DNA of 64,000 bases from positions 124,001 through 188,000 of the forward strand of contig NZ_FZOF01000011.1 in assembly GCF_900188405.1 (NCBI RefSeq). The letters are read 5' to 3'. The notes beneath the pieces are model-generated. The model had not been told where the DNA came from, ran no database searches, and saw only the letters and a program-made list of their open reading frames with translations. Origin of the DNA: Actinacidiphila glaucinigra (GTDB lineage: Bacteria > Actinomycetota > Actinomycetes > Streptomycetales > Streptomycetaceae). Below are positions 1 to 7,934 of this stretch, piece after piece (the first letter of the stretch is position 1; each line of letters starts with the position of its first letter). The position numbers and the translations under genes were made by a program.

Positions 1-2096
1 TGGGAGAGGAGGGGCCGCAGGCCGAACAGTTCCCAGCGTGCGTCGAGCTGACGGCGCAGCACGGCCTCGGAGCCCACATCGTCGGCGGGCCGGATCCAGC
101 CCCGCCGGGGGATGCCGGGTTCGCCGTGCTTGCGGCGCAGGATGATGCGGTCCTGTCCCTCGCTGCGGACCACCTGCGCCTGGACCCCGCGGGTGCCGGC
201 GTCCTTGCGGTCGCTGTCGCCGCCGTACAGCTCGACGTCGGCGCTGCCGCCCTCCTCGCTCTCGAGACGGCCGAAGAAGTCGCCGAAGTCGGGGCGCAGG
301 TCGGGGTGGCGGGCGTACTTGGTCAGGAGGGGCTGGCGGAAGATGCGGTCCTGGTCCCGGCGGCGGTCCCAGGACACCAGCACCTCCACGTCGTTGTCGC
401 CCGGTGCGTGCGGGTCGAGTTCGTAGGGGTACCGGCGGGCCTGGAGTTCGACGCCCTGGAACTCCAGCAGCCAGTCGATGGCCCGCTGGTAGTCCAGCTG
501 TGCGGTCGTCGCGCCGCCCACGGGGCGTATCGCGTCGATGACGGCCGCCCATGAGGGCCTTCCCTGCCGCAGAGCGGTCAGCCGTGCCCGCGGCATGCGG
601 TGGTCGACGACCTGGACATCGGGCAGGCGCCGACTGCGGGAGAGCGACTGCAGGTCGTCGAGGCGGGCCTCCATTCCCGGCGCGTCGCGCTGCGCGACGT
701 ACTTGACGAGCAGGACCTCGCGCAGCGGCGTACCCAGCGCCTGCCCTTGCACCGGGCGCATCAGCTGCCCGAACCACAGGGCCCGCCGCCCCACCAGGAC
801 GGTCGTCGCCTCGCGTTTGGCGTCCCTTGTCCCGCCGCCGACATAGGGGTCGGCGCCCTCCTGGGAGAACAGCACCTGTGTCCCGCGCAGTTCACCGGTC
901 AGAAGATCGGCGATCTCCCGCACCCCCTCGGGGCTGACGGCCTCGTTCTCCAGCCATCCCCACCGCCCGAGGGTCTCCTCGCACCTCTCGGGCATGAAGG
1001 CGACCAGGAGCGGGCGGCTGCTGCGTTCCTGGCCGAGCGCCACCACGTTGTCCTCGTGGTTCTCGCTCAGCTCGTTGACGACCTCCGCCGCGGTGGGCCG
1101 CTGCGCGGGATCCTCGTCCAGCATCCGGCGCAGCACGGACGCGAGGGCGGGTGGCAGGTCGGTGGTACGCAGCGCTCCCCGCATGTGCTCCCCCAGGCGC
1201 CGCAGCTGCCCGCGGGTCTCGGCCACGGCCGCCGGGTCTTCGGGCACCCGGTCCGGTACGAGCTCCGGGGGGAAGGAGCCGACGAACCACTCCCAGGCGA
1301 TGGCCGCCAGCCCGTACACGTCGGCTTGCACGGACTCGCTGCGGTTGGACTGCTCGCCCTCCATCGGCAGCAGGTGGCGGACACGTTCGGGCGGCAGGTA
1401 CGGCAACGGCTCGGGGCCGCCGAGCGTGAGCCGGCGCAGGTCCTCCGGCGCCGCGGTGGAGTCCACGGTGGCGGCGTCCAGGAGGCTGGAGACGAAGGCG
1501 CTCATCTCGAACCGTGCCAGTCGCAGGTGGGTCTCTCCCGGTCCGGCCCGGTACTCCGGCACGACGTCGATCGTCTCCGGTGACAGGTTGCGGTGGGCCA
1601 GCCGCAGATCGTGCAGGACGGCCAGGCCGTCGGCGAGGTGCTCGAACTGCCGCAGTGCCTTGACCGGGGCGCGCCGGTACGGTTCGGGCCCCTCCTCGGC
1701 GAGGGTGTAGTCGGAGCCCTCGGTGGCGACGAAGGCCACGCCGTCGACGTCGGCGCCCGCCTCCCGTACCGTCTCGGTGTCCTGGTAGCCGCCGGCGAGC
1801 AGCTGGGGCAGGGCGGGATGGTCCAGGCCGGACAGCCGGGAGAGCGCCCGGATCTCCTGGTCCCACAGCAGACCGCCGAGGCTGGAGAGCCCGAGGTAGA
1901 CATCGACGTTGATCATGCGGGCCGAGACGTCGTCGCCCTCGAGCAACTGGCAGGTGTACATGCGCCCGTCCAGCAGTGCCTTGCAGGCCGGTTCGCCGTC
2001 CGGGTCGAGCGGGACGTACGGCCCGTAGCGTGCCGTCTCCTCATCGCAGCAGAAGTACGTGACCATCCGCTGCGCGATCTGCGTGTCCCCCGCCAC
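1..2096 (-). CDS. Protein kinase-fold protein lacking catalytic residues (pseudokinase), 3' end beyond window
   Basis: The frame is open for 698 codons from GTG 2096 to the left edge, so the C-terminus is missing. The GTG is preceded by a GAGGGG ribosome site about 7 nt upstream. Residues about 45-330 read as a kinase fold: a helix-C Glu (E81 in DQEIRALSRL) followed by LDHPALPQLL, a catalytic-loop-like LAHRNLSPETI (H168-R169-N170), an APE-like LPPER ending at E237, and the subdomain IX Asp (D259 in ADVYGLAAIAWEWF). The HRD aspartate is Asn, the DFG position reads R195-F196-E197, and no glycine loop or VAIK lysine is visible, so phosphotransfer is unlikely. The second half (from about residue 350) is a conserved-looking region I do not recognise. 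It is transcribed away from the CATRA/CHAT operon, 360 bp distant. A sensor or scaffold role in that system is inference; an atypical active kinase is the alternative. Confidence 0.8.
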   Translation of the reverse strand, partial: MAGDTQIAQRMVTYFCCDEETARYGPYVPLDPDGEPACKALLDGRMYTCQLLEGDDVSARMINVDVYLGLSSLGGLLWDQEIRALSRLSGLDHPALPQLLAGGYQDTETVREAGADVDGVAFVATEGSDYTLAEEGPEPYRRAPVKALRQFEHLADGLAVLHDLRLAHRNLSPETIDVVPEYRAGPGETHLRLARFEMSAFVSSLLDAATVDSTAAPEDLRRLTLGGPEPLPYLPPERVRHLLPMEGEQSNRSESVQADVYGLAAIAWEWFVGSFPPELVPDRVPEDPAAVAETRGQLRRLGEHMRGALRTTDLPPALASVLRRMLDEDPAQRPTAAEVVNELSENHEDNVVALGQERSSRPLLVAFMPERCEETLGRWGWLENEAVSPEGVREIADLLTGELRGTQVLFSQEGADPYVGGGTRDAKREATTVLVGRRALWFGQLMRPVQGQALGTPLREVLLVKYVAQRDAPGMEARLDDLQSLSRSRRLPDVQVVDHRMPRARLTALRQGRPSWAAVIDAIRPVGGATTAQLDYQRAIDWLLEFQGVELQARRYPYELDPHAPGDNDVEVLVSWDRRRDQDRIFRQPLLTKYARHPDLRPDFGDFFGRLESEEGGSADVELYGGDSDRKDAGTRGVQAQVVRSEGQDRIILRRKHGEPGIPRRGWIRPADDVGSEAVLRRQLDARWELFGLRPLLS

Positions 2097-2455
2097 GGTG
2101 CCCCCTCACAGAGATCCGTGTGTACCTGCCTCGCAGTATGCCCAAGTATGCGTCAGTGCAGTGGTGATACGCACTATGTCTACGGCCGGTCGCGGCAACC
2201 GCGCCAGAACCCCGCCGACGTCGTCATCTGCATCCGTTCGGAACGCGTCCGCCGGCACCGCGCATGAGTGAGCGACGGCCGCCGGTGACCCCGGTGGGAA
2301 TCAGCGGAGGCCAGGGGTCCCACGCCGCGCCGGATGCAGCAACTGCGCGCCCCGATCGCCGAGTCGGGAATTCCAGCCGCGGGCGGGCGCCGAGCGATAT
2401 CCTTGGGCCCTCATTCCGGGAGCGGACACGGGAAAGCAGCAACGGGGGGCCACCG
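2097..2455. promoter_or_regulatory. Divergent intergenic region between pseudokinase and CATRA operon
   Basis: These 359 bases separate two outward-facing starts and must hold promoters for both directions. A reading frame from ATG 2264 runs into the downstream small-protein gene, but its first 64 codons have mixed third positions and no family-like sequence. I therefore treat it as leader, not protein. No clear operator palindrome was seen. Confidence 0.45.
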
Positions 2456-2791
2456 GTGGATGCGGAAGTGAGGCGGCGTGCCGTCAACCGACTGCGGGCG
2501 CTCGACGACTGGCTCCTGTCGGCCGAAGGATGGGCCCGCGTGGAGGAAGTGCTCGGGGAGCTGAACGAGGCAGTGGCCGCCGGCTCCAACGACGCGATCG
2601 ACAAGAGCCTCGCCGGTCTGCAGGCAATGGAGTCCGCCAATCGGGCCCGGACCCTGCCCGGCGCCCGGAAGACCCCCATCCCCGCGGACCGGCGCGAACA
2701 ACGCAACGTCCTGGTCGGCAGGCTCACCCTCGACCTGAACGGTCCGGACGGACCGCGCGACCAGAGGGGCACGCACCCCGCGACCGACTGA
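2456..2791 (+). CDS. CATRA system-associated small protein, 111 aa
   Basis: This is a small, charged, soluble helical protein, with no signal peptide or membrane segment. The helix-rich stretch RAVNRLRALDDWLLSAEGW is followed by a tail ending RGTHPATD. GTG 2456 was chosen because GGGGGG lies about 9 nt upstream and the family-like sequence begins there; an upstream in-frame ATG at 2264 would add 64 low-quality residues. Its place directly before a CATRA membrane protein (37-nt gap) matches the 'CATRA-associated small protein' that accompanies CATRA and CHAT genes in actinobacteria. It probably binds the membrane or protease component. Family assignment is from memory of gene order and sequence character, not from a search. 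Confidence 0.65.
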   Translation: MDAEVRRRAVNRLRALDDWLLSAEGWARVEEVLGELNEAVAAGSNDAIDKSLAGLQAMESANRARTLPGARKTPIPADRREQRNVLVGRLTLDLNGPDGPRDQRGTHPATD

Positions 2792-2828
2792 GCGCCATTC
2801 GCCTACGTCTGGAATCGGGTGACGCCTG

Positions 2829-4376
2829 GTGCAACGGTTCGTCAAACCGTCGCTGATCATCACATGCTTCGTACCGGCCACGCCGGAGGCGGAAGACACC
2901 GCCGCCCACGCATACCTCGCACGCCTGTGGGACGCGTGCGGCCTGCTCGGCATCACCGAGGCGTTCGGCGGGCTGCCGTCACGCGAAGAACCCGCCCCCG
3001 AATCCGACGCCGTCGCCGCGGAGTTCACCATCCTCGAAGCGGCGACGCGGGAGGACGGCCCGGGCATCCATGCCGCGTTCCGGTTCGCCGAGCACGATGT
3101 ACGGGGGCTGGTCGCGCTGCTGGCGCCGAACGACCTCGACACGGGACTCGGGCAGTGGAACACCTTGCTGGACCAGTGGTCGACGGCCCTGACCGCCGCG
3201 GGGGTCACCGACCCCCCACCGGACGGAATCCTCGGCGAGTTCCGCGTGTTCACGGCGCTGCACCCGGCAGGGACACCCCGGTCGCAGCCGCCCGTGGCCG
3301 AATCGGTCCGACGGCACGCACCGCCGTCCGGCGCGGACGATGACACCTGGTGGCGTGGGCACGACGTCACAGAGCACGGGTTCTCGGTCTGGCGCACCGG
3401 CCCGGGAGACCCGAGGGACGTGGTGACGGACTTCTGCGTCCTCGCCCCGCTCCGAGCGGAGGGCGCACTGGACGAATGGGTCTGGGCGAGGGAGGGCGAG
3501 AACGGCTTACGGCCGCTGACCCGCTACCTGATGCACGCCGCCAAGGCCGGCTACGAGGCTCGCCGGTACCACACGCTCGCCTCCGAGAAGCCCCTGCACA
3601 AGCGCCGGGCCGCCAGCGACCAGGAGAGCCGCGCCCTGCTGCGTGCGCTGCAGCCCGGTGCCTCCGGCGAACCGGTCAGCCTCAAGGACGTCCTTGCGGC
3701 GGCCGCCATGCTCGACCAGACCCAACTCGGGCCCCACGGAACACTATGGGCGATCACCCAGCATCGCGACCTGGCCCGCACGGTGAACATCGCCGTCACG
3801 AACATGCGCCTGCACACGCCCCGGCTGCGGCGCGTCGGAGCCGGTCCGTCCTGGCCCGAGCGCGATCTGGCCGCGGCCGAGAACCTGATCGCCCAGGTCC
3901 AGAACGATGTGGAATACCTGTCGACCGCCCGCGAACGCGCCGAGGCGGCGCGCACCGCGGCCACCGCGGTCACCGACCGGGCGTTGAACGAGTACCGGAA
4001 CCGGCTGAGCCTGGTGCAGACCTCGACACTGGGGTCGCTGCTCACCGCGCTGACCGTGGTGCAGTCCCTCGACTACGACCTTCCGCTCCCGAAGTCCGCC
4101 CAGTTGCCGACCATCCTCGTCCTCGCGGCCGTCGCGCTGCTCCTCCCGCTGGTCGTGCTCAGGCAGGCCGCGGTATCCGCGGCCTCGCTCCCCTACCGCT
4201 GGATCGACTCGGCGGCCGCGGGCCTGCTCGGATCCTCGGTGTGCTGGCTGGCGCTGACACTGTGGCGCCTGCACCTCGGGCACGCCCCGCCGACGCCCGT
4301 CATGACAGTGAGCGCATGCGCGGCCGTCGGCCTGGCCGTCACCGCGGCGGTCCATCGGGCGGCCCGCCGCCGCTGA
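2829..4376 (+). CDS. CATRA conflict-system CASPASE/TPR-associated membrane protein
   Basis: The protein has 515 aa. The N-terminal 260 residues form a soluble domain opening RFVKPSLIITCFVPATPE. A long helical, coiled-coil-like stretch (about 330-420, rich in Ala, Glu and Arg) comes next. Three hydrophobic helices (about 430-448, 458-477 and 490-508) then end in VHRAARRR. This architecture and its place between the small protein and a TPR-CHAT protease fit the CATRA (caspase and TPR repeat-associated) family of predicted NTP-dependent or death-like conflict systems. The helical region followed by membrane helices suggests an oligomeric membrane sensor or effector; that function is inferred. 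Start GTG 2829 has only a weak ribosome site (GGAATCGGG), which may suggest translational coupling to the upstream gene. The gap to the CHAT gene is 47 nt. Confidence 0.7.
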   Translation: MQRFVKPSLIITCFVPATPEAEDTAAHAYLARLWDACGLLGITEAFGGLPSREEPAPESDAVAAEFTILEAATREDGPGIHAAFRFAEHDVRGLVALLAPNDLDTGLGQWNTLLDQWSTALTAAGVTDPPPDGILGEFRVFTALHPAGTPRSQPPVAESVRRHAPPSGADDDTWWRGHDVTEHGFSVWRTGPGDPRDVVTDFCVLAPLRAEGALDEWVWAREGENGLRPLTRYLMHAAKAGYEARRYHTLASEKPLHKRRAASDQESRALLRALQPGASGEPVSLKDVLAAAAMLDQTQLGPHGTLWAITQHRDLARTVNIAVTNMRLHTPRLRRVGAGPSWPERDLAAAENLIAQVQNDVEYLSTARERAEAARTAATAVTDRALNEYRNRLSLVQTSTLGSLLTALTVVQSLDYDLPLPKSAQLPTILVLAAVALLLPLVVLRQAAVSAASLPYRWIDSAAAGLLGSSVCWLALTLWRLHLGHAPPTPVMTVSACAAVGLAVTAAVHRAARRR

Positions 4377-4423
4377 CTCCCCCGACCACCCCGTCCTCAA
4401 CAGAAGCGGGAGCCGAACAGGCC

Positions 4424-7099
4424 ATGCCCCAGTCGACGAGCCCACAGCCGGAAGACTCCGTCTCGGCCATTCTCGCTCTCATCGGCCAACTGGACGTCGA
4501 GGACGTCATCCTCCGATTCGACGTGGACTTCGACGTTCCCATGCGACAGGACGACGCCCTGCGCCTCCTGCGGCTGGCCGGGGAGTCCGGCCACGGCCGG
4601 CGGAACGACATCCGGGACACGGCGCGCCGGGTGGGCGCCCACTGGTGCGAGATGGTCCACGCGGACGTGACGTACAAGCTGTTCACCGGCCTGCAGCTGA
4701 TCAAGGCTTCACGAGCCGACGCCCGGCTGCTCCACGATCTCCATCTCCGCGGTGAGCTGCCGGCGGATGACCCCTTCGCCGCCTACGCGGCCGCCCGGTG
4801 GTTCGACGGGGAAGGCCGGATCCGGTACCGGCTGGGCAGCTTCACCTCCGCCCGCATCTCCTTCGGCACCGCCGTGGACATCGCTCAACAGGCCGGACTG
4901 TGGTGGGCATTGCCGGATCTGCGCAGCAACCGCGAACGCGCACGGTTCGAGGAGCGCGGGCAGGCGATGCGGGACGGTGGAAAGGCATCCGCCACGGGCG
5001 AGTTCGTCATGGAACTCGAGGCGCTCCTGGAGGAGATGGAGGAACTGGCCCACCTCCATGGTGTCGACGTCGCCCGTCCCCCGACTCCCGAAACTCCCGC
5101 CCGCCACCGCGAGTTCCTCCGCGGCCATTCCAACGTCCTCCACAACCTCGCCACGGCGCTCCGCGAGGCAGGACAACCCGCACGGTCGCTTGCGGCCACC
5201 TCACGCTCCCTGGCCATCTCCGAAGGCCTCGCCGACGTCTACCGGGTGGCGCAGTCACACACCAATCAGGCGCTGTGCGACCCGGAGAACGCCCAGCGGC
5301 ACTTCGAGGAGCTGCTGACCCTCCCGTGGCCACGCGGAAGGGCCATCGCCCGGCAGAATCTCGCGCTCCGCGGCGGCGGCGGCCCGGGGCTGGCGGAGCT
5401 GAGGCGACTCCTCGACGAGATCGAGCAGGACGACTCCGCGGACGGACACCACGCTGCGCTGGACGTCGACTTCTACGCCTACACCGTGCGCGGCTACCAG
5501 CGGACCGCCGAAGCCATGCCGCCCGACAGCCGTCCGAAGGACGTCCTCACACGGCGGCTGGGCCTGGCACGTTCGGTCCGATCGGCCATCGCCCTGCCCG
5601 CCTACAAGCGGACGTACGCCCGTCACATGCGACCGGCGTTCCTGCACGCCATCGCCGAAGCCGTCGTCCGCGGGCACGACGCGCAGGCGGACCAGGAGAA
5701 GGTCCTGTCCCTGGTCGAGGAATCCGCAGGCCGTGAACTGCTCGACCTGCTCGGCTCCTCGCATCCCTCGTCGCTCAGACCGCCCGCCCATCGCATCGCC
5801 GGAGCCCCCTCACCCGAAGCCTCCGACACAGGTCCCGGTCCCGCTGTGCGCGCCGCGCTCCGGGCCGCTTCGCCCGAACTGACGCAGGCCCTGCGCGAGG
5901 TGCTGGCCGAACGCGAGCGGGAGTACGAAGAGCACTTCCTGGACGCCCCGTTGAACTCCGTTCCGCACGACGAGGACATCGCGCACCGCCTCGTCCAGTA
6001 CACCCTCAATCACCCGGGCTCCTGCGTGGTGCGCTACTTCCGCTACGCCGCACCCGACGGCGTCACGGGCGGCGCCGGAGCCGTGTCCGACTCCCTCGGC
6101 ATCATGGTCTGCCGGGACGGACGTCTGACGACCGTGCCGGGCATCGCCTACGAAAAGGTGGCGGGCCTGGCCGATCAAGTGTGGGCCGACCTCTCCGACC
6201 CCGACTCACCGTGGCCGTCGGAGGCGACCTGCCGCCGCGTCTGGGACCTCCTCCTCGCACCCGTCTGGGACCGCGTCGACGACGGTGGCACCACGACCCA
6301 TCTCACGTTGATCCCCACGGACCACGTCTTCGCCATACCGCTCCACGTCGCGGTGGGACCCGGCGACACACGTCCGCTCGCCGCACGGATCCCGCTCTCC
6401 CACTCCGTCAGCGTGGCCGCCTTCGTCACGCAGGGACGCCACCTGCTCAAGCGCCAGCTCATGGAACAGGACGACGACCTCACGGCCCTGCTGTCCACCG
6501 ACGCCGACGCCTCGGGCCGCGAACTCGTCGGCACGGGCTGGCACCCCGACAAGGTCTTCGTGGCCGGCCCGCCTCCCGAGGGACTGGAGTACGCCGAGCC
6601 GGCCCACGCCGCCGACTGGGACGGTCTCAGCGCACTCGTGGCCAAGGAACCGGAGTTCTTCGTCTACGCCGGCCACGGCACCTACCTGGACGGCCAGGAA
6701 GCCGCCGGTCCGCTGCTCCACCTCGGCAGCCACGACGTGCTGACCCAGTTCGACCTCGCCCTGCGCGTCAGCCTGCCACGCAACAAGCTGACCGTCCTCG
6801 GTGCGTGCGTGGCGGGACAGGGCATGCGCTCCGACGGGGGCGACGTCCTGGGATTCATGCGCTCGCTGATCATCAGCGGCGCCGGAGCCGTCTGCCTGCC
6901 CCTCTGGTACGTCCTGGACATCGCACTGGTGCAGACCGTACGCGCGCTGCTCCGCAAGAGCAGAAGCGTCCTGGGCGATGCCGACAGCGCGCCCTTCGAT
7001 GTCGTCCAGGCCCTCCACGAGCACTACCTCACGGTCCTGGACGACTATCCGAACCTGGCCGGCCGCATCCAGCACACCCCGCTGGCCCTCTATTTGTGA
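4424..7099 (+). CDS. TPR-repeat CHAT-domain caspase-like protease
   Basis: The protein has 891 aa. ATG 4424 lies about 9 nt after GGGAG; the open frame extends upstream to 3350, but that part overlaps the CATRA gene. Residues about 180-470 are alpha-helical TPR-like repeats (for example EAGQPARSLAATSRSLAISE). The C-terminal third is a CHAT domain of the caspase/separase clan. The catalytic His is H751 in FFVYAGHGTYLDG and the catalytic Cys is C795 in LTVLGACVAGQG, followed by GDVLGFMRSLIISGAGAV and a closing IQHTPLALYL typical of CHAT C-termini. It is expected to be a cytosolic cysteine endopeptidase that stays inactive until its TPR part receives a signal. Being in one operon with CATRA genes argues for control by the membrane component. 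Its substrate, possibly a partner encoded nearby, is unknown. Confidence 0.88.
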   Translation: MPQSTSPQPEDSVSAILALIGQLDVEDVILRFDVDFDVPMRQDDALRLLRLAGESGHGRRNDIRDTARRVGAHWCEMVHADVTYKLFTGLQLIKASRADARLLHDLHLRGELPADDPFAAYAAARWFDGEGRIRYRLGSFTSARISFGTAVDIAQQAGLWWALPDLRSNRERARFEERGQAMRDGGKASATGEFVMELEALLEEMEELAHLHGVDVARPPTPETPARHREFLRGHSNVLHNLATALREAGQPARSLAATSRSLAISEGLADVYRVAQSHTNQALCDPENAQRHFEELLTLPWPRGRAIARQNLALRGGGGPGLAELRRLLDEIEQDDSADGHHAALDVDFYAYTVRGYQRTAEAMPPDSRPKDVLTRRLGLARSVRSAIALPAYKRTYARHMRPAFLHAIAEAVVRGHDAQADQEKVLSLVEESAGRELLDLLGSSHPSSLRPPAHRIAGAPSPEASDTGPGPAVRAALRAASPELTQALREVLAEREREYEEHFLDAPLNSVPHDEDIAHRLVQYTLNHPGSCVVRYFRYAAPDGVTGGAGAVSDSLGIMVCRDGRLTTVPGIAYEKVAGLADQVWADLSDPDSPWPSEATCRRVWDLLLAPVWDRVDDGGTTTHLTLIPTDHVFAIPLHVAVGPGDTRPLAARIPLSHSVSVAAFVTQGRHLLKRQLMEQDDDLTALLSTDADASGRELVGTGWHPDKVFVAGPPPEGLEYAEPAHAADWDGLSALVAKEPEFFVYAGHGTYLDGQEAAGPLLHLGSHDVLTQFDLALRVSLPRNKLTVLGACVAGQGMRSDGGDVLGFMRSLIISGAGAVCLPLWYVLDIALVQTVRALLRKSRSVLGDADSAPFDVVQALHEHYLTVLDDYPNLAGRIQHTPLALYL

Positions 7100-7172
7100 C
7101 GTCCCAGCAGCGGCGCACAACGAACGCAGCACGAGACCCAGACGGCACGAACCGGAAGAGACGAGGCGACAG

Positions 7173-7934
7173 ATGACACAGGCCGGATCCGAGGACAACG
7201 CGGTGCGCGAACGCAGGGACGCACGCCTGAGGGCCTACGCCGTCCTGCAAGAGCAACGGCCGGAGCTCTTCGTGAACCCCCCGGGGACCGCGTACGAGAT
7301 CCTGCTCGACCGCGCCGACCAGGACCACGTGACACGCGAAGTGGAGAAAGTAGCCGTCGCGTTCGGCTTCCCCGAGGACTGCGCGGACATCGGCGTCGTC
7401 TACCGCGACCCCTACGTCTGCATGGTCCGCGACGCCGTGCGCTTCCGCTCCGGGCGCGTCAACACCTACATCCGCTTCGTCCCCGAGGGCCCGGGAGGAG
7501 GGGCCGCGGTCCTACCGGTCCTGGACGACGGCAGGATCGTCCTCCTCCACCACTTCCGGCACGCCGACCGCGACTGGCACTGGGAGATCCCCCGGGGCTT
7601 CGGTGCGCGGGACGAGGAGAGTTCCACCACCGCGCGCCGCGAACTGCTCGAGGAACTCGGAGGCGAGGTGACCGAGATGATCCATCTCGGCGAGCTCACC
7701 TCCGACACGGGGATGCACAGCGTCCGCGACCAGCTCTACCTCGCGCGGCTCGCCACGTCCTCGTTCCCCGAGACGCCCGGCCCCGACGCGCGTGAGGAGG
7801 GAATCGACGCCTTCCGGGCCCTCACCCCCGACGAGATGCGTTCCGAGCTCGCCAAGGGACACATCCACGACGGTTTCACCCTTGCCGCCTGGGCCCTGGC
7901 CACGGCCCGCGGGCTGCTGCCGTCGGCCCCCTGA
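7173..7934 (+). CDS. NUDIX hydrolase (ADP-ribose pyrophosphatase-like), last gene of CATRA/CHAT operon
   Basis: The protein has 253 aa and starts at ATG 7173, 73 bp after the CHAT stop. The complete NUDIX box spans residues 142-164: G142, E148, R156-E157, E160-E161, G163, in the spacing G-x5-E-x7-R-E-x2-E-E-x-G. The preceding WHWEIPRGF is the usual entry strand of ADP-ribose/NDP-sugar pyrophosphatases (here PRGF instead of PGG). About 90 N-terminal residues (ELFVNPPGTAYEILLDRADQ) precede the fold and are not part of a minimal NUDIX enzyme; this extension is seen in NUDIX proteins of conflict loci, as far as I recall. The enzyme should hydrolyse a nucleoside diphosphate linked to another moiety. 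A role in making, removing or limiting a nucleotide signal for the CHAT system is inference. Confidence 0.85.
   Translation: MTQAGSEDNAVRERRDARLRAYAVLQEQRPELFVNPPGTAYEILLDRADQDHVTREVEKVAVAFGFPEDCADIGVVYRDPYVCMVRDAVRFRSGRVNTYIRFVPEGPGGGAAVLPVLDDGRIVLLHHFRHADRDWHWEIPRGFGARDEESSTTARRELLEELGGEVTEMIHLGELTSDTGMHSVRDQLYLARLATSSFPETPGPDAREEGIDAFRALTPDEMRSELAKGHIHDGFTLAAWALATARGLLPSAP

Follow-up and report, generated by a model that had tools for sequence, protein, structure and literature searches.

The question raised by this locus is whether a CHAT protease and a NUDIX hydrolase encoded behind CATRA genes mark a distinct kind of conflict system, and whether a kinase-like gene facing them takes part in it. 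The locus lies in a 64,000-nucleotide stretch of DNA from the soil actinobacterium Actinacidiphila glaucinigra (hereafter the window), which spans bases 124001-188000 of contig C29 in a 9.8 Mb genome of 80 contigs. A first-pass annotation made from the letters alone had placed four open reading frames there, for a CATRA-type small protein (CATASP), a CATRA membrane protein, a TPR-CHAT protease and a NUDIX hydrolase, and had grouped them with a facing divergent pseudokinase. All four were confirmed at the positions given in Table 1, the gaps between them measure 37, 47 and 73 base pairs (bp), as that annotation had reported, and the profile searches it had proposed returned matches above cut-off for the CATRA, CATASP, CHAT and NUDIX Pfam models. 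By sequence, CATASP-CATRA-CHAT-NUDIX is thus a predicted, already annotated CATRA-CHAT conflict-type operon.

Conservation of the four-gene unit

The CATRA-N and NUDIX searches covered 394 Streptomycetaceae genomes; at most seven candidates per genome were scored for CATRA-N, six for NUDIX and two for MkoA (the product of the facing gene, discussed below), and all counts are therefore lower bounds. CATRA-N scored above cut-off in at least 28 of the 394 genomes. For phylogenetic comparison we assembled 33 CATRA genes, including that of the window and five from three further genomes of the same order. In the resulting tree, in which the rows L034 and L036 are doubtful and L036 forms a long branch, seven CATRA genes, the window's among them, make up a monophyletic clade with support of 100/100. 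A related NUDIX gene lies downstream of CHAT in every member of this clade (7/7). At the six other clade loci, CATRA is followed directly downstream by genes for CHAT and NUDIX, which share 51-60% and 56-63% identity, respectively, with their counterparts in the window, and tblastn at E 1e-4 recovered no related CHAT or NUDIX gene at any of the remaining 26 CATRA genes. CATASP reaches the PF20271 cut-off in all seven CATRA-NUDIX loci, in one of them at exactly 29 bits. With start codons as chosen, neighbouring genes of the clade's operons overlap by as much as 29 bp or lie up to 117 bp apart.

Only one closely related pair of these loci (L031 and L032) shares its surroundings, so that the seven represent six separate genomic contexts. 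That pair aside, no gene beyond the four was common to the seven loci by blastp; because gene calls in the compared loci came from a custom-made scorer that missed some genes, the comparison was also run at the DNA level with tblastn, with the same outcome. The reciprocal NUDIX search across the 394 genomes agrees, as the eight matches listed above 270 bits are the seven operons and one further locus, L063, with the next match at 179 bits. As a purely indirect sign, 14 of 31 CATRA protein clusters have a longest contig equal in length to that of a NUDIX cluster, a comparison that took in the best 39 of 120 listed NUDIX rows. Because NUDIX is present in 7/7 clade members against 0/26 outside, CATASP is present in 7/7 and the NUDIX search leads back to the same loci, the four genes are, as far as sequence comparison can establish, a genuine subtype of CATRA-CHAT. 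The earlier assignment of NUDIX to a distinct CATRA subtype is borne out, and the gene set recurs as a unit in six contexts; neither of the two outcomes that the first-pass annotation had named as refuting, a lack of matches to the CATRA models and a gene set not kept together in other genomes, came about.

L063 encodes a CHAT protein (44% identical to the window's) and a NUDIX hydrolase (56%) 57 bp apart, and its genome (G077) yielded no CATRA-N match among the candidates scored and no CATASP above cut-off. Since its NUDIX nests within the NUDIX clade (a clade of eight, support 99/96; inner fork 91/86), CATRA was probably lost there. At L081, a CHAT gene (46%) overlaps a diverged, long-branch NUDIX gene of doubtful origin with a degenerate box.

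The operon shares with the known CATRA conflict systems its CATASP, its CATRA-N and CATRA-C domains, its CHAT caspase-like gene and an effector-type domain at the CATRA C-terminus, and differs from them in the conserved NUDIX gene added in the window's clade. CATRA is already annotated in public databases. These systems were reportedly defined by Burroughs and Aravind in 2020. Literature term searches found no description of a NUDIX partner for CATRA, although the defining paper may contain one; CATRA systems are predictions, and the literature searched yielded no experimental test of one. A further study names CATRA as a phyletically restricted system (PMC12657218).

Features of the encoded proteins

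Table 1. Positions of the operon, its predicted domains and motifs, and the facing cluster (window numbering unless a locus is given)
Feature	Position	Strand	Basis
CATASP, CATRA-associated small protein, 111 aa	2456..2791	+	PF20271
CATRA protein, membrane type, 515 aa	2829..4376	+	PF20269 + PF20270 + NF038357
CATRA-N domain, aa 9-221, alpha/beta in model	2853..3491	+	Pfam + structure model
CATRA-C domain, aa 229-371, helical, continuing into a long helix (342-413)	3513..3941	+	Pfam + structure model
CATRA C-terminal hydrophobic region, aa about 393-514, four predicted helices	4005..4370	+	sequence + structure model
TPR-CHAT caspase-like protease, 891 aa	4424..7099	+	PF12770
CHAT predicted catalytic His751 (YAGHG)	6674..6676	+	alignment
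CHAT predicted catalytic Cys795 (GACVAG)	6806..6808	+	alignment
NUDIX hydrolase, ADP-ribose-pyrophosphatase type, 253 aa	7173..7934	+	PF00293 + structure model
Nudix box, aa 142-164, fits GX5EX7REXXEEXG	7596..7664	+	motif + alignment
MkoA, 1235 aa	L004:10389-14096	-	PADLOC E 1.8e-257
Mokosh cluster: MkoA, MkoB, HATPase gene	L004:4508-14096	-	PADLOC + Pfam

The CATRA protein matches the Pfam models for CATRA-N (182.8 bits, cut-off 27, E 9.5e-54) and CATRA-C (89.2 bits, cut-off 24.6, E 5.2e-25) and scores 275 bits against NF038357 (cut-off 90); its closest relative, 97% identical and likewise from Actinacidiphila glaucinigra, is annotated 'CATRA conflict system', and its CATRA relatives in that species span 89-97% identity. 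Its structure model, with a mean predicted local distance difference test (pLDDT) score of 80.2, consists of an alpha/beta N-terminal part, a helical part, a single 72-residue helix and a hydrophobic C-terminus. The first-pass annotation was right in calling it a membrane protein, although it counted three helices where four hydrophobic ones are predicted. It is at the C-terminus that members of the family vary: across the 33 rows compared, hydrophobic helices occupy it in 19, a CAP12/Pycsar-type TIR domain in 5/5 rows of one clade (L027, L028, L029, L042 and L050) and a GT4-conflict domain in both rows tested (two) of another five-row clade, with four rows left without an assigned type. According to an earlier study (eLife 2021, PMC8195603), GT4 domains take the effector position in CATRA systems that depend on a caspase. 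TIR, GT4 and membrane helices thus interchange at this position. Two sister CATRA proteins (L023:9801-11531 and L024:8794-10536) have no hydrophobic helices, and in L023 about 220 residues beyond CATRA-C match no other Pfam family and are possibly a further effector type. GTPase genes also occur close to CATRA, namely L042:13848-15008, with a sub-threshold DO-GTPase2 match, and L043:11380-13698, which encodes a Dynamin_N protein.

CATASP scores 86.2 bits against PF20271 (cut-off 29, E 1.4e-24), and the CHAT domain 65 bits against PF12770 (cut-off 24, E 1e-17). Matches to TPR models in the CHAT protein, near residues 237-298, stay below cut-off (TPR_2, 20 bits against 27; TPR_12, 14.3 against 30.1). 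The dyad had been placed correctly at H751 and C795, both of which are identical in 9/9 aligned CHAT proteins. CHAT is the partner at other CATRA loci as well, in eight of nine candidate partner genes scanned. The genome encodes two more CHAT proteins (G000:C37:77003-77851 and G000:C55:301878-302741), which are not linked to CATRA, because the window's CATRA-C match is the only one in the genome.

The NUDIX protein matches PF00293 above the Pfam cut-off (E 6.3e-12), its Nudix box is intact, and E157, E160 and E161 are invariant in 83 aligned relatives. The best PDB matches of its model (mean pLDDT 94.9) in a structure search are ADP-ribose and nucleoside-diphosphate-sugar hydrolases; against the curated subfamily TIGR00052 it scores 17.8 bits (cut-off 79.55), which places it in the fold type and outside the named subfamily. 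From sequence and model, the enzyme looks catalytically competent and ADP-ribose-pyrophosphatase-like, and it is possible, as first proposed, that the operon senses or degrades a nucleotide ligand. Beside wider relatives of this NUDIX, an unrelated family of about 500 residues ('fam6') adjoins in 17 of 22 loci outside CATRA operons (14/19 and 3/3; L065-L077, L080 and L092-L094), several members carrying the motif AQALDNQW; those tested gave no significant match in Pfam, PADLOC or PDB.

Possible roles of the CHAT protease and NUDIX hydrolase

In the operon, four conserved genes run in one direction, the protease dyad and the Nudix box are both intact, and membrane helices occupy the CATRA position that holds effector-type domains in other CATRA proteins. 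From this we favour, with not quite even confidence, a NUDIX-bearing membrane-type CATRA-CHAT subtype that acts independently of Mokosh, with CHAT as its hub and CATRA and NUDIX as its outputs. Either CHAT, through its TPR array, or CATRA-N together with CATASP, or both, would sense an infection or stress cue; activated CHAT would then cut or release its partner proteins, the CATRA helices would damage the membrane, and NUDIX, as a second CHAT-controlled output, would hydrolyse an ADP-ribose-like or other nucleoside-diphosphate compound, with growth arrest or death as the presumed result. The more specific proposal that CHAT and NUDIX form a protease-gated effector, in which triggered CHAT activates or frees NUDIX, a nucleotide pool is depleted and CATRA breaches the membrane, strikes us as rather unlikely. 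One study (PMC12799240) describes how partner effectors are switched on by caspase-like and trypsin-like proteases in Canu, Hachiman and AVAST. Canu, protease-HamA, the TPR-CHAT of Craspase and SAVED-CHAT, as described in three sources (PMC12799240, PMC9729208, PMC11229360), likewise encode a caspase-like or trypsin-like protease with the protein that it controls, whereas the window's operon has no nuclease, CRISPR or SAVED part and its partner is a NUDIX hydrolase. In an account of vWA-MoxR ternary systems (Kaur et al. 2020, PMC7159879), Nudix is likewise named as a potential effector, with ADP-ribose or NAD+ as its target; there, however, the Nudix domains lie inside the vWA-MoxR systems, whereas the window's NUDIX is encoded on its own, behind CHAT. 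In the literature searched we found no description of a Nudix effector under the control of a caspase-like protease, which is what CHAT-NUDIX would be if the proposal were true.

Several points weigh against the favoured model. The helices are the only pointer to membrane damage by CATRA; CHAT-NUDIX without CATRA is thinly evidenced, with L063 as its one firm case; no PADLOC model matches CATRA or CHAT, and NUDIX gives only a weak match to PDC-S07 (E 9.2e-5); and the pairing of NUDIX relatives with the family of about 500 residues in 17/22 loci means that the enzyme family is not defence-specific. By analogy with NrN and CorA, NUDIX could instead be an off-switch that degrades a nucleotide signal opening a CATRA channel. 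In PMC10600005, the phosphodiesterase NrN degrades SAM-AMP and adjoins CorA effectors in type III CRISPR systems, a good precedent, since that layout of membrane effector and neighbouring nucleotide-degrading enzyme resembles this operon, which has no Cas10. The top 23 Foldseek matches of the CATRA model in PDB are CorA or MRS2 chains (one of them carrying only a Thermotoga mutant title). These matches are weak, however (best E 0.012), and at L063 NUDIX has remained beside CHAT although CATRA is absent, which favours a CHAT-NUDIX tie over a CATRA off-switch, albeit on one firm, and thus thin, case; we consider the off-switch unlikely. A NUDIX that would protect the cell or reset metabolism by clearing ADP-ribose-type products of other NAD+-consuming defences, without contacting CHAT or CATRA, seems to us marginally more doubtful: its ADP-ribose-pyrophosphatase fold and the TIR domains of other CATRA clades are consistent with it, yet the NUDIX clade itself has membrane CATRA rather than TIR, and its linkage to NUDIX is strict. 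That kinase, CATRA, CHAT and NUDIX constitute one system, as first suggested, is very improbable. The kinase gene and the operon are divergent neighbours whose start codons, as used, lie 359 bp apart, but the kinase is MkoA of Mokosh, and tblastn with MkoA and MkoB gave no match in the 31 further CATRA regions compared, none of them longer than 20 kb (a count that leaves out L020-L022, duplicates of L031, L032 and L044), which largely contradicts it.

With only four genes, an intact protease dyad, an intact hydrolase and a swappable membrane domain, the operon is compact and should be easy to clone and mutate. It would thereby allow one to ask directly which proteins are cleaved by a bacterial CHAT protease, and whether hydrolysing nucleotides resets a signal or serves as a weapon.

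The facing Mokosh cluster

The window holds only the N-terminal 698 residues of the facing gene (3-2096, minus strand), and its candidacy as a 'divergent pseudokinase' of the CATRA system was an artefact of the window's edge. The whole gene encodes MkoA, with a degenerate kinase-like N-terminus and a UPF1-type superfamily 1 helicase C-terminus (AAA_11/AAA_12). It is followed by the gene for MkoB, a PLD protein (PLDc_2; PADLOC E 7.1e-153), and by an 845-residue HATPase gene, with an overlap of 4 bp between the two. This cluster, separate from the operon, is Mokosh, which we take to be of type I. MkoA scores above 700 bits in at least 24 of 297 sampled Streptomycetaceae genomes, the window's own included. 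In four other genomes that encode both MkoA and CATRA, the two lie on different contigs (G022 and G064), about 2.6 Mb apart (G031) or 0.8 Mb apart (G033).

The kinase part was correctly read as degenerate, with HRN and RFE in place of HRD and DFG, but this is no CATRA-specific trait. Kinase motifs were readable in 13 of 14 MkoA sequences, the window's included, one being misframed and left out, and the HRD aspartate and DFG are lost in 11 of the 13 and both kept in L091 and L105. The 13 readable sequences are the window's own and those of L091, L095, L096 and L098-L106; the 11 carry HRN or HRG and have RFE or GFE for DFG. By sequence, then, a conserved pseudokinase inside the defence helicase MkoA characterises that MkoA group and not the CATRA locus, which removes a false lead. 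Of 12 further Streptomycetaceae MkoA loci, one of which ends at a contig edge, 7 have a relative of the HATPase after MkoB; judged from its sequence and position, the HATPase may be a third Mokosh component.

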